Shown here: positions 23,492 through 26,825 of the stretch, piece after piece
Position numbering within the stretch: position 1 is the stretch's first letter
How the letters are laid out: the number at the start of each line of letters is the position of its first letter
Position numbers and translations under genes: made by a program
Notes under the pieces: generated by a model
The model's database searches: none
What the model saw: the letters and a program-made list of their open reading frames with translations, nothing else
Told to the model about the DNA's origin: nothing
Virus record (IMG/VR): IMGVR_UViG_3300042307_000273
Coordinates: 1-29,505 of that record
Direction: 5' to 3' (one strand)
Source: a virus
DNA length: 29,505 bases

Positions 23492-23796
23492 CACCAGTAG
23501 AAAAAGCCAAAGAACTTTACGATAAATTTGAAGACGTAATGATTGATGCAGATGCGTATTTTGTCGAAAGTGGTGGTTACCGAGCTGCGATAAAAGCAGT
23601 TGAACAGATTCTAAAAGAAAGCAAAACTCCTGAAATTTCACACCGTATAGATTCTTACAAAACGGCTCAAGATTTTAACAATAATTGGAAGCACATTAAA
23701 GACCAAATCGACTATTTCACATTGAATCAATACTCTTATTGGCAGCAAGTAAAACAAGAATTGGAATATATGCATACTAAACACCTACCAAAATGA
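23488..23796 (+). CDS. Hypothetical protein, 102 aa
   Basis: This mostly helical protein starts MTPVEKAKELYDKFEDVMID and contains RAAIKAVEQILKESK and YWQQVKQELEYM. The N-terminal 'KAKELYDKF' with 'A...AV..IL' is common in small phage proteins of unknown function. It overlaps both neighbours by four bases. I see no catalytic residues. Confidence 0.65.
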   Translation: MTPVEKAKELYDKFEDVMIDADAYFVESGGYRAAIKAVEQILKESKTPEISHRIDSYKTAQDFNNNWKHIKDQIDYFTLNQYSYWQQVKQELEYMHTKHLPK

Positions 23797-24044
23797 ACAA
23801 CGACTTAAAACTCATTTCTTCCATCGCAATACTTCCAGTACTTGCTGACTTCCTCGAAGACCTAAACGAAGAAAAAGCGTTTCGTACTGAAATGAAAATG
23901 GCAACGCAGAACCTCATCAATCAAATCAGAAAACTCGATGAGCGCGTAATGAAAAACGCATCACCAGAAACATCAGAACAACAAGTAAACATACAAATAG
24001 CATTCAGACAATGGTTAAGCACAGCACATACGGAAGAAAAATAA
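23793..24044 (+). CDS. Hypothetical helical protein, 83 aa
   Basis: This protein starts MNNDLKLISSIAILPVLADF and continues with a charged helix (EEKAFRTEMKMATQNLINQI) that could form a coiled coil. Its end overlaps the DnaA-like gene by 34 bases, so the two are coupled. A role as an accessory protein to replication initiation is possible, based on position alone. Confidence 0.6.
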   Translation: MNNDLKLISSIAILPVLADFLEDLNEEKAFRTEMKMATQNLINQIRKLDERVMKNASPETSEQQVNIQIAFRQWLSTAHTEEK

Positions 24045-24448
24045 AATATATTTTATCTAAGATACCAAAGCGGTCATTTTACACGATGCACGAGTTCTTT
24101 TTGGTTTGTCCTTACACTCACGAAGAATTGAAAATCGCAAACCGCTCACGCGACCGAATGCAATGGAGACAGCTTGGAATGGCTTGGGCAACTTTAACCG
24201 GGTTGTCTTTAGCTGAGTCGGGAAAGCTATTTAACAAAGACCACGCAACGGTTATTTATTCGCAGGAAATGATAGTTTTGGCTCTCGATGGTTACCACCC
24301 ACTACTCGCGGAAAAGTTGAACGAGGTGCTGGAGTGCATCGAAATCACGAATGCTCATGCTAACGACTACAATACCGCTTTGATTATTTCGGCGAGACGT
24401 ATTGAGAGTCTGTTGAAAAATAGATACAAACGTTTAAACCAAATTTAG
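24011..24448 (+). CDS. DnaA domain IV-like DNA-binding protein
   Basis: This 145-residue protein lacks the AAA+ domain of DnaA. It has the C-terminal DNA-binding pattern: RMQWRQLGMAWATLTGLSLA, followed by the signature-like GKLFNKDHATVIYSQEM (KDHATV at 76-81). In DnaA the segment reads F-x-x-RDH-[ST]TV and contacts the DnaA box. The protein probably binds phage or host DNA at an origin and helps initiate replication. It precedes the structured RNA and the replication protein/helicase genes. No cluster of DnaA boxes was found nearby. Confidence 0.75.
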   Translation: MVKHSTYGRKIKYILSKIPKRSFYTMHEFFLVCPYTHEELKIANRSRDRMQWRQLGMAWATLTGLSLAESGKLFNKDHATVIYSQEMIVLALDGYHPLLAEKLNEVLECIEITNAHANDYNTALIISARRIESLLKNRYKRLNQI

Positions 24449-24460
24449 AATATAGTACTT
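24437..24460 (+). promoter_or_regulatory. Putative phage-specific promoter, copy E (upstream of the ncRNA)
   Basis: AACCAAATTT begins at 24437, and TACTTATATTAG begins at 24456, again exactly 19 nt start to start. No start codon follows closely. The structured RNA begins a few bases downstream, so here the motif would drive a non-coding transcript. Confidence 0.55.
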
Positions 24461-24465
24461 ATATT

Positions 24466-24567
24466 AGTAGACAAGTTCACATCCTACATTATATGAACTT
24501 TAAAGGTGTTATTAGCCCTTGCAATGAATGACAGGTAGGATGGTCAGGAGTTGTGAGGGTTTTTTTA
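24466..24567 (+). ncRNA. Structured ~100-nt RNA with two hairpins and complementary loops
   Basis: The intergenic stretch of 136 bases contains no ORF. Hairpin 1: AAGTTCA (24473-24479) pairs with TGAACTT (24494-24500), with a 14-nt loop. Hairpin 2: CCCTTGCAA (24516-24524) pairs with TTGTGAGGG (24551-24559) with two G-U pairs, topped by TGAC (24529-24532) with GTCA (24543-24546) and a 10-nt loop. The first eight loop-1 bases, CATCCTAC (24480-24487), are the exact reverse complement of the last eight loop-2 bases, GTAGGATG (24535-24542). A 7-T run follows hairpin 2. This suggests a kissing-loop RNA with its own terminator. The 5' end is inferred from promoter copy E. The function is unknown. 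Confidence 0.65.
24514..24566 (+). terminator. Terminator hairpin of the structured RNA
   Basis: The outer stem of hairpin 2 (24514-24524 with 24551-24561) is followed directly by T residues 24560-24566. It would release the RNA about 20 bases before the replication gene unless the hairpin is refolded or read through. Confidence 0.6.
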
Positions 24568-24584: not shown

Positions 24585-25172
24585 ATGAGTAAAGAAAAGG
24601 AAAGGGAAACAATGATTGTATATCGGTCATTTTTCGAGTCACTAAAAGGGTGCGAAAAGACGGTTCAAGCTGATGTTTGGAACGCAATTTTTGAAATGGG
24701 TTTTAATCAAAAAGAGATTGAACTCGATGGGTTAAGTAAAACTTTATGGTTGCTTATTAAGCCACAAATAGAAGCGAATCTAAAGCGATTCTTAAACGGA
24801 AGTAAACCAAAACAGAAGCAAAACGTAAGCGAAAAGGAAGCAAAACCGAAGCAAGAACTAAGCAAAAGTGAAGCTAATAACAATAACAATAACAATAACA
24901 ATAATACTATACCAACTCTTGACGAGTTTGTGGCTTATGGATTAGTTCAACTTCCTGACGTTTCAAAAGACGCTTTGCGCCTTAAATACCATTCTTGGGT
25001 TAGTAATGATTGGTGTGTAAGTGTTGGAGGTAAAACACGAAAGATTAAAAACTGGAAGTCAAGCCTAAACAATACTTTACCATACTTACAAAAAGAACCT
25101 CAAGTCGAATTAACACAAGACCAAATTTTCTATAATAACGTAATGAGACAAATAAATGAACGAAACTCTTAA
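24585..25172 (+). CDS. Phage replication protein (DUF6291-like N-terminus)
   Basis: This 195-residue protein begins with YRSFFESLKGCEKTVQADVW and GLSKTLWLLIKPQIEANLKR, the helical N-terminal domain typical of phage replication proteins of Bacteroidota (DUF6291-like). A Lys/Gln/Glu-rich linker and a run of ten Asn follow. The C-terminal unit (TLDEFVAYGLVQLPDVSKDA ... YHSWVSNDWCVSVGGKTRKI) resembles DnaT/DnaD-type helicase-loader ends. It would load the helicase encoded next. It overlaps the helicase gene by 17 bases. Confidence 0.65.
   Translation: MSKEKERETMIVYRSFFESLKGCEKTVQADVWNAIFEMGFNQKEIELDGLSKTLWLLIKPQIEANLKRFLNGSKPKQKQNVSEKEAKPKQELSKSEANNNNNNNNNNTIPTLDEFVAYGLVQLPDVSKDALRLKYHSWVSNDWCVSVGGKTRKIKNWKSSLNNTLPYLQKEPQVELTQDQIFYNNVMRQINERNS
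24876..24905 (+). repeat. AATAAC hexamer microsatellite encoding Asn10
   Basis: Five tandem AATAAC units (the last is AATAAT) give ten Asn codons in the linker of the replication protein. Repeat number can change by slippage in steps of two Asn without breaking the frame. Confidence 0.95.
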
Positions 25173-26031
25173 ATACCTTTTCGACTACAAAGACGGAAAG
25201 ATAAAGCAAGGTCTTGGTTTGGATATTGAGTTGGACACTTACCTTCGATTTAAACCAAAGCAACTAAACATCATTCTCGGACACGACAACGTAGGGAAAA
25301 CGTATTGGATTAATTGGTACTTCCTTGCGCTTACGACAAAGCACGGTTTGAAATGGTGTATTTGGTCTGGAGAAAATCAGAGCGGTCAAATTATGCGCGA
25401 CCTCATTCAAATGTACACGGGAATTGCTTACAAGAATCTAACAAAGTCTGAAATTCAAGACACCTACCACTACCTTGAGCCGTTTTTTCAGTTCGTACCA
25501 AACGACAAACTTTACACCCCGGAAGAACTACTCGACATTTTCGGCAAGTCGGAATGCAACGCTTGTTTGATTGACCCGTTCACTGGGTTGGACAGACAAA
25601 TGGGTTATGAAGCTAACTACAAGTTTCTAAACATGGCTCGGCAGTTTTGCAATACCACGGGAAAGACCATCTACATAAACACGCATCCAACATCCGAAAG
25701 TGGACGGAGTGGAATGCTATACGGAGATGACCAAAAGGAATGGAAAGGACACCTTAAGCCACCATTAAAAGACCACGTTGAAGGTGGAAAGGCTTTTCTT
25801 AATCGCTGTGATGACATGATTGTAGTTCACCGCTTAGTAAAACACGAACATATGAGATACGAAACAATGATTTCAGTAGAAAAAGTCAAAGACACGGACA
25901 CGGGCGGTAAACAAACTATGCTAAATATCCCCGTTTTGTTTAATTTTAACTCAGGTTTAGGTTTTCGATGCGGTGGAGTTGACCCAATAGTGAGACCAAA
26001 GACGAAAAAAAATAACGATTTACCTTTTTAA
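25156..26031 (+). CDS. DnaB/RecA-fold replicative helicase
   Basis: This 291-residue protein has a RecA-type ATPase core. LNIILGHDNVGKTYWINWYF contains Walker A GHDNVGKT. WCIWSGENQSGQIMRDLIQM is the motif-1a region, ECNACLIDPFTGLD is Walker B, and TIYINTHPTSESGR is the sensor/motif 3 region. The N-terminal primase-interacting domain of cellular DnaB is missing, as in many phage helicases. The C-terminus is KKNNDLPF, which resembles the DLPF tip of Bacteroidota SSB. It would unwind DNA at the phage replication fork. Confidence 0.8.
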   Translation: MNETLKYLFDYKDGKIKQGLGLDIELDTYLRFKPKQLNIILGHDNVGKTYWINWYFLALTTKHGLKWCIWSGENQSGQIMRDLIQMYTGIAYKNLTKSEIQDTYHYLEPFFQFVPNDKLYTPEELLDIFGKSECNACLIDPFTGLDRQMGYEANYKFLNMARQFCNTTGKTIYINTHPTSESGRSGMLYGDDQKEWKGHLKPPLKDHVEGGKAFLNRCDDMIVVHRLVKHEHMRYETMISVEKVKDTDTGGKQTMLNIPVLFNFNSGLGFRCGGVDPIVRPKTKKNNDLPF

Positions 26032-26033
26032 TT

Positions 26034-26825
26034 ATGAAAATAGGATGGTTTTCATGCGGTGTTACTTCCGCAGTAGCTTGTAAATTAGCGATTGAGATTT
26101 ACGGCAAAGATGAAGTTGAACTTTACTATATGGTAATTGATTCAGCACATAAAGACAATGAGCGTTTTATTGAGCAATGTGAAAAATGGTATGGTAAAAA
26201 GATTAACCGAGTGCGTTCAGAAAAATATACAGACCAATTTGATGTAATTGAAAAAATTAGATATATAAACGGACCAACTGGCGCACCTTGCACCTTGCAT
26301 TTGAAGAAAAATGTAAGATATAAAATTGAAAAAGAAATTGATTTTGACGGTCAAATTTTCGGTTTTGAGTTTGAGAAAAAAGAAATTAACCGCGCTATTA
26401 GATTCAGTCAACAATACCCACAAGCGAAACCATTATACCCACTGATTGACCGAAAGATGACTAAAAGCCAATGCGCTGAATTGCTACTTAAAAACGGAAT
26501 TAAGCTACCTAAAATGTACGAATTAGGTTTTCATAACAACAATTGTATTGGGTGCGTGAAAGGTGGCAAAGGTTATTGGAATCACGTTCGTAAACATTTC
26601 CCGAATGAGTTTAAAAGGATGGCAGATTTAGAGATTAAAACGGGCGCGAGTTGTATTAAGGGTAAATTTTTGACCGACCTTAAACCAAATGAAGGTAAAC
26701 ACGAACCGCCAATTGTTCCCGACTGCGGTACATTTTGCGAAATTGAGTTTGCAGATGTTATTGATGCAAACACGGAACAAGTTTTAGCTGGTTACACAAC
26801 TATAAAACAACTTAAACTATTTTAA
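26034..26825 (+). CDS. PAPS reductase-like PP-loop (adenine nucleotide alpha-hydrolase) protein
   Basis: This 263-residue protein starts with a PP-loop variant (WFSCGVTSAVACKLAIEI; SCGVTS in place of SGGxDS). It has a central APCTLHLKKNVRYKIEK segment and a distinctive Cys unit, NNCIGCVKGGKGYWNHVRKH, with a further Cys pair near the end (PDCGTFCEIEF). Such phage proteins are usually annotated as PAPS reductase-like. They may activate substrates by adenylation or transfer sulfur. The Cys residues could hold an iron-sulfur or zinc site. It could be part of a nucleotide or DNA modification pathway, but there is no direct evidence. Confidence 0.75.
   Translation: MKIGWFSCGVTSAVACKLAIEIYGKDEVELYYMVIDSAHKDNERFIEQCEKWYGKKINRVRSEKYTDQFDVIEKIRYINGPTGAPCTLHLKKNVRYKIEKEIDFDGQIFGFEFEKKEINRAIRFSQQYPQAKPLYPLIDRKMTKSQCAELLLKNGIKLPKMYELGFHNNNCIGCVKGGKGYWNHVRKHFPNEFKRMADLEIKTGASCIKGKFLTDLKPNEGKHEPPIVPDCGTFCEIEFADVIDANTEQVLAGYTTIKQLKLF

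Follow-up and report, generated by a model that had tools for sequence, protein, structure and literature searches.

A linear 29.5-kb IMG/VR virus record, the whole of which is referred to here as the window, carries a predicted RNA of about 95 nt, built of two hairpins with mutually complementary loops, and this kissing-loop RNA is almost certainly a conserved element. Judged from sequence comparison, it belongs to a widespread family across phages of Flavobacteriia that is absent from Rfam 15. The reading that we favor, with a probability of roughly 0.6, is that of a leader/attenuator tuning the expression of a replication initiator, its loops kissing within one molecule. Comparison among relatives is what brings out the fold and the family, as well as the promoter box, the location ahead of replication genes and, in a subgroup, a second complementarity. 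The features of the window that are relevant here are the following.

24011-24448, plus strand: upstream gene, small protein with a DnaA C-terminal DNA-binding domain (PF08299)
24460-24467, plus strand: -7 promoter box TATATTAG, one mismatch versus the Bacteroidota TAnnTTTG
24472-24566, plus strand: predicted RNA, about 95 nt, from the inferred transcription start to the end of the U-tract
24473-24479, plus strand: hairpin 1, 5' strand AAGTTCA (minimum-energy fold; covarying helix in 92 relatives)
24480-24487, plus strand: loop 1 kissing sequence CATCCTAC (covarying 8-bp helix with 24535-24542)
24488-24493, plus strand: loop 1 spacer ATTATA (6 nt long in 64/77 members)
24494-24500, plus strand: hairpin 1, 3' strand TGAACTT (minimum-energy fold; covariation)
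24501-24515, plus strand: A/T-rich linker TAAAGGTGTTATTAG (TTATT-like motif in most members)
24516-24525, plus strand: terminator hairpin (hairpin 2), outer 5' strand CCCTTGCAAT (helix 98.8% paired in relatives)
24526-24528, plus strand: hairpin 2 internal loop GAA, opposite GGA at 24547-24549 (tandem-GA type)
24529-24532, plus strand: hairpin 2, inner 5' strand TGAC (minimum-energy fold)
24535-24542, plus strand: loop 2 kissing sequence GTAGGATG, pairing with 24480-24487
24543-24559, plus strand: hairpin 2, 3' side GTCA-GGA-GTTGTGAGGG (minimum-energy fold; covariation)
24560-24566, plus strand: intrinsic-terminator U-tract of seven T (sequence)
24585-25172, plus strand: downstream gene, DUF6291 protein, taken as a replication initiator/replisome organiser
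25156-26031, plus strand: gene for a DNA primase/helicase-type protein (PHROGs matches)

The minimum-energy fold of the window RNA contains both hairpins, the first with a 7-bp stem (AAGTTCA/TGAACTT, 24473-24479 / 24494-24500), and the second composed of an outer helix of 10 bp, G-T pairs included (CCCTTGCAAT/GTTGTGAGGG), and an inner one of 4 bp (TGAC/GTCA). A sequence-only reading had pointed to perfectly complementary 8-base loops, seven T residues behind the second hairpin, no internal ORF (there is none of note at 24466-24567), and a location between a DnaA-like gene and replication genes, and all of these are indeed features of the window, the genes being those for the DnaA C-terminal-domain protein upstream and for the DUF6291 and then the primase/helicase-type protein downstream. 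The motif that it took for a promoter is also present, but it is a Bacteroidota sigma-A -7 box rather than a "phage-type" promoter. The fold energy of the window RNA by itself is unremarkable (z -1.7). A descriptor combining the -7 box, hairpin 1, the loop-loop complement, the terminator hairpin and the T-run has a single match in the window and 5 matches in 1.03 Mb of order-1 randomised sequence, and lone matches without context thus need to be viewed with caution. As to known families, a search of the whole window against Rfam 15 returned none at or above the gathering score, in agreement with the earlier statement that purine and preQ1 riboswitch cores are not matched; near the RNA, only chance matches were seen up to E=10, and the other classes of the element and the cultured isolates produced nothing except a tRNA. 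A 12-mer further upstream, CAAAACTCCTGA (window 23622-23633), is complementary at 11/12 positions to the 3' side of hairpin 2 (24544-24555); this is probably a chance match, while an upstream transcript carrying it could in principle open the terminator. A function as a replication origin or primer was considered and rejected, the window possessing neither iterons nor a skew switch.

Further evidence comes from relatives. A scan with the DnaA-like protein produced 66 loci, and in most of the close relatives the stretch following this gene contains an RNA of the same layout but of a different sequence, with loops again complementary (for example GCTTCCAC/GTGGAAGC, GCTCTCAC/GTGAGAGC and GGTCTCAC/GTGAGACC). 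A first alignment, A1, consisted of 17 representatives selected with the loop-loop criterion, and, being circular for the kissing helix if used alone, it was employed for building a covariance model without the loop-loop pairing. The first 73 loci contained 65 matches to this model. A further set of loci, collected with a pattern confined to part of loop 1 and therefore not chosen for pairing, contained about 62 good matches, and the loci reached through replication-region proteins about 70. In the alignment of the 92 distinct matches (A5), 96.7% of the cells of the kissing helix are paired, with 171 two-sided changes versus 60.5 in shuffles (0/500 shuffles), and registers slid relative to the helix are at most 43% paired. 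Most of the unpaired cells belong to six rows whose alignment is faulty at the loop; with these rows left out, 681/688 cells are Watson-Crick pairs and one is a G-U pair. Hairpin 1 and hairpin 2 helices covary as well. Covariation had been named in advance as the decisive check, and the relatives do preserve the loop pairing through compensatory changes in both loops. One alternative, in which the upstream operon simply ends in an intrinsic terminator and the loops match by chance, would account for the strong hairpin and the T-run, but it is refuted by the covarying loops, with the conserved -7 box and the low chance rate of the descriptor also speaking against it, and we assign it a negligible probability.

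Within this family, the RNA variants are freely combined with upstream and downstream alleles, and the element is mostly single per genome. Two of the members (L102:5003-5093 and L103:14814-14904) are identical over about 90 nt save for the kissing sequences, GTCTCTCAC/GTGAGAGC in one against GCCTTCCAC/GTGGAAGC in the other. The idea that the loops are under diversifying selection was dismissed, as the kissing sites evolve more slowly (0.016/site) than the stems (0.038 and 0.058). The relatives were obtained via IMG/VR and the replication protein. Among isolates, neither nucleotide similarity searches nor searches with the DnaA-like protein detected any, and a single scan of genome contigs returned chance matches in Methylobacterium. 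No published description of the element was found in a literature search that reached few subscription papers.

The conserved parts of the element include its promoter. The G of TAnnTTTG is at position -5 in Flavobacterium johnsoniae (PMC6847099), and by this rule transcription in the window would start at about 24472, with hairpin 1 beginning at the next base. Across the family, the -7 box is exact in 69/89 cases and has one mismatch in 17 more (86/89 total), compared to 7/890 exact occurrences in random control windows, and it ends mostly 4-5 nt 5' of the RNA start. A scan for sigma-70-type promoters carries no meaning in Bacteroidota. An antisense RNA was considered as a candidate and rejected, since 1/92 members has an exact opposite-strand -7 box within 70 nt, versus 76/920 controls.

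The geometry of the two hairpins bears on whether the loops pair within one molecule or between two, both of which had been proposed from the window alone. The kissing helix, of 8 bp in the window, ranges from 6 to 9 bp in the family, and hairpin 2 has 17-20 nt ahead of its kissing sequence in the members measured. The stretch between the top of hairpin 1 and the foot of hairpin 2 remains at about 19-26 nt whether the loops are long or short, the short-loop classes having kissing loops of 6-7 nt and little or no spacer, while the length of stem 1 varies from 3 to 8 bp. Such near constancy next to a variable stem suits intramolecular pairing, with no need for dimerization. A dimerizing RNA, its loops pairing between two molecules as in the packaging RNA of phi29, would be consistent with mutually complementary loops, which could join two molecules, and covariation would be the same for both cases; however, a near-constant stretch is expected only within one molecule, and the RNA is located in the replication region, away from packaging genes, and has no Rfam match. 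This makes dimerization highly improbable, and a packaging-RNA role finds no support in the location of the RNA or in Rfam. The energy of the loop-loop duplex is confined to a narrow range (-11.4 +/- 0.9 kcal/mol, compared to a standard deviation of 2.7 for random 8-mers), and hairpin 1 alone is weak (-3.4 kcal/mol), which makes the kissing helix the main stabilizer of the 5' half.

The internal loop of hairpin 2 in relatives, as seen by eye, is GAA/GGA, GAT/TGA or the loop-E-like AGTA/GAA. The loop-E-like version occurs in both orientations (L006 and L044 versus L011 and L045), and loop-E and tandem-GA loops replace each other between members, as if they were interchangeable three-dimensional modules. 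The conservation of a non-canonical internal loop, whether tandem GA or loop-E in either orientation, along with the fixed lengths of spacer and linker, could be expected of a leader sensing a metabolite or a protein, that is, a riboswitch or a protein-binding leader in which the kissing loops serve as a scaffold. However, no sequence core is common to all classes, the short-loop classes are entirely devoid of the spacer, and no riboswitch of Rfam is matched, so that we regard a sensing leader as improbable.

The link to replication genes that had been suggested for the window holds steadily across the gene contexts of the relatives. Among 108 contexts, the upstream gene encodes a DnaA C-terminal-domain protein in about half, and other upstream genes often end like those for a single-strand-binding protein. 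A second, distinct stand-alone family with the DnaA C-terminal signature (L195-L213) is also found 5' of the RNA elsewhere. Of about 100 first downstream genes, 51 belong to one group, the one containing DUF6291, and others are small ORFs or NUMOD4-HNH endonucleases ahead of the DUF6291 gene. Conversely, most of the DUF6291 genes in the replication-protein set have the element in front. The assignment of DUF6291 as an initiator is inferred from PHROG matches, which are weak and point to primosomal and replisome-organiser families, from the annotation in Harreka_1 and elemoC, and from gene position. In one locus (L008) a DnaD-like helicase loader occupies the place of DUF6291, and in another (L042) a replisome-organiser-like protein does. 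The gene after the RNA, directly or past a short insert, thus appears to be typically a replication initiator, of several unrelated families, suggesting that the element tracks gene function rather than one gene family. In the window, the replication operon also includes a phosphoadenosine-phosphosulfate-reductase-like gene (26034-26825; PHROG 424, E 2e-50).

The distance to the next gene is short. The start codon lies 18-29 nt from the start of the T-run in about 90/108 contexts (25 nt for the DUF6291 ATG in the window), and an exact -7 box is present inside this gap in only 3/92 cases. The gap is too small for another promoter, so that polymerase must pass the terminator to reach the downstream gene, an arrangement typical of leaders. 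The element is not indispensable, since about 9/80 DUF6291 loci are without it, as is a 28-kb relative (G027; locus L028) in which the DnaA-like and DUF6291 genes (L406/L407) are adjacent, with no RNA between. This relative represents a natural deletion for comparison. Second copies of the element, with another kissing sequence, have been noted in three cases (L009:4264-4344, L239:3954-4031 and, in tooticki6-1, L322:11603-11690), and these directly precede NUMOD4-HNH endonuclease genes, as if the RNA and the endonuclease were travelling as a pair.

The DUF6291 replication protein is also encoded in cultured phages, and phi19:3, phi13:2, Harreka_1, 11b, tooticki6-1, hemulen9-1 and elemoC possess the same layout 5' of DUF6291, with unrelated sequence. 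The covariance model fails to recognize these elements reliably (best E 0.75). When whole genomes were scanned with the descriptor, one element was found in 11b, one in Harreka_1 and two in tooticki6-1, the other of which precedes a NUMOD4 endonuclease gene. The descriptor misses the element of phi19:3, in which hairpin 1 is weak, and it has no match in the whole genome of P12024S. With sequenced isolates (11b, Harreka_1, tooticki6-1, elemoC, phi19:3) among its members, the family is directly testable.

In part of the family, loop 2 has a further possible partner. In short-loop members and in two sets of mutually related long-loop RNAs, loop 1 is repeated just 5' of the start of the replication gene, 0-12 nt before the DUF6291 start codon (L246, L256, L257, L258, L262, L270 and others), as GTCGCAG, GTTGCAG, AAGCAG, AGGCAG, GTGCAG or CTTCGAC. 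The repeat changes in step with loop 1, and the six loop variants each agree with their own start region. A match of 6-7 nt is seen in 12 of the 60 distinct pairs and one of 4-5 nt in none, compared to 0.75 on average and at most 4 over 5000 permutations; the 12 matches are not independent events, as the repeat variants share ancestry. With loop 1 repeated at the initiator start, loop 2 has two possible partners. In the subgroup with GTGCAG, the RNA and the initiator are separated by about 1.9 kb with other genes, a thymidylate-synthase-like ORF among them, and the repeat is kept, which hints at action at a distance, or at a relic. This separation counts against the leader reading. The repeat is not a general rule, own matches for all genes numbering 10/86 versus 53/633 in the control, and the window's own RNA and nearly all long-loop members lack it. 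Nor do the loop 8-mers recur at any other conserved site across 11 near-complete long-loop genomes.

The main rival reading is that of a stand-alone small RNA acting in trans, whose terminator loop would pair with the initiator start region or with host mRNAs, and whose loop 1 would mask loop 2 or time its release. The RNA has its own promoter and terminator and a hairpin at its extreme 5' end, as would be expected of such a molecule, and loop 2 complements the initiator start in the subgroup, even across 1.9 kb. However, the absence of further conserved sites in the 11 genomes just mentioned argues against this role, the loops vary among phages of apparently similar hosts, making a fixed host target unlikely, and the gap to the next ORF is short whichever ORF follows, again the geometry of a leader. 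We consider the trans-acting role on its own rather unlikely, and the leader and trans roles could both apply at once.

For the leader/attenuator reading, the following sequence of events can be proposed. Its first steps are those backed by comparison: the position of the Bacteroidota -7 box puts the start of transcription at the opening base of hairpin 1, and this hairpin joins the terminator hairpin via a loop pairing that is preserved by compensatory change, with the U-tract next and the start codon usually 18-29 nt on. Polymerase would mostly stop at the U-tract, freeing the RNA of about 95 nt, and the remaining polymerases would read through to produce the initiator mRNA. Between loop 2 and the hairpin end lie 15-18 nt, so loop 2 would exit the polymerase at about the time the U-tract is reached, and it is due to this coincidence that the kissing fold is proposed to determine the ratio of termination to read-through. 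We infer from this arrangement that the RNA is transcribed, that attenuation lets part of the polymerases through and that the kissing helix exerts the control. In the repeat-bearing subgroup, loop 2 may instead cover the initiator start, as a second, translational brake. More tentatively, the terminator loop may choose between its own 5' loop and the initiator start region, with the accumulating RNA feeding back on initiator synthesis; such a feedback RNA, if real, would represent a self-contained, copy-number-like control of phage replication that dispenses with a separate antisense RNA. Should the RNA indeed control the supply of initiator, this would reveal how replication onset is timed in these phages, and a compact RNA switch usable with the Bacteroidota transcription machinery would become available.

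We know of no precedent for a terminator hairpin whose loop ties it to the 5' end of its own RNA, and none was found in a literature search reaching few subscription papers, but parts of the arrangement have parallels in known systems. One example is the purine riboswitch, in which two hairpins are in loop-loop contact upstream of an expression platform. Unlike purine or preQ1 riboswitches, the window RNA has no ligand core, and its terminator hairpin itself bears a kissing loop. Another example is the C4 antisense RNA of phages P1 and P4, a small phage RNA that regulates early genes through pairing with separate leader sites; the long-loop genomes, by contrast (11 near-complete), have no further conserved target, and a C4-like target is seen solely as the start-codon repeat of the subgroup. 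A third example is the pRNA of phi29, of about 100-170 nt, whose covarying complementary loops pair between molecules and which serves the packaging motor. The window RNA is likewise a phage RNA of similar size with covarying complementary loops; however, it precedes replication genes, ends in a terminator and is matched by no model, and it lies at 24.5 kb, with the portal-protein gene at 14.4 kb, rather than at a genome end by the packaging genes. Finally, in the plasmids pT181 and pIP501, the rep leader contains an intrinsic terminator, and RNA loop-loop contacts control initiator supply. An antisense promoter on the opposite strand, a trait of these plasmids, is not enriched among the 92 members. 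The window RNA resembles these systems as a terminator leader directly before an inferred initiator gene, but the plasmid leaders have as their partner an antisense RNA transcribed from the other strand, whereas in the window both complementary loops reside within one RNA.
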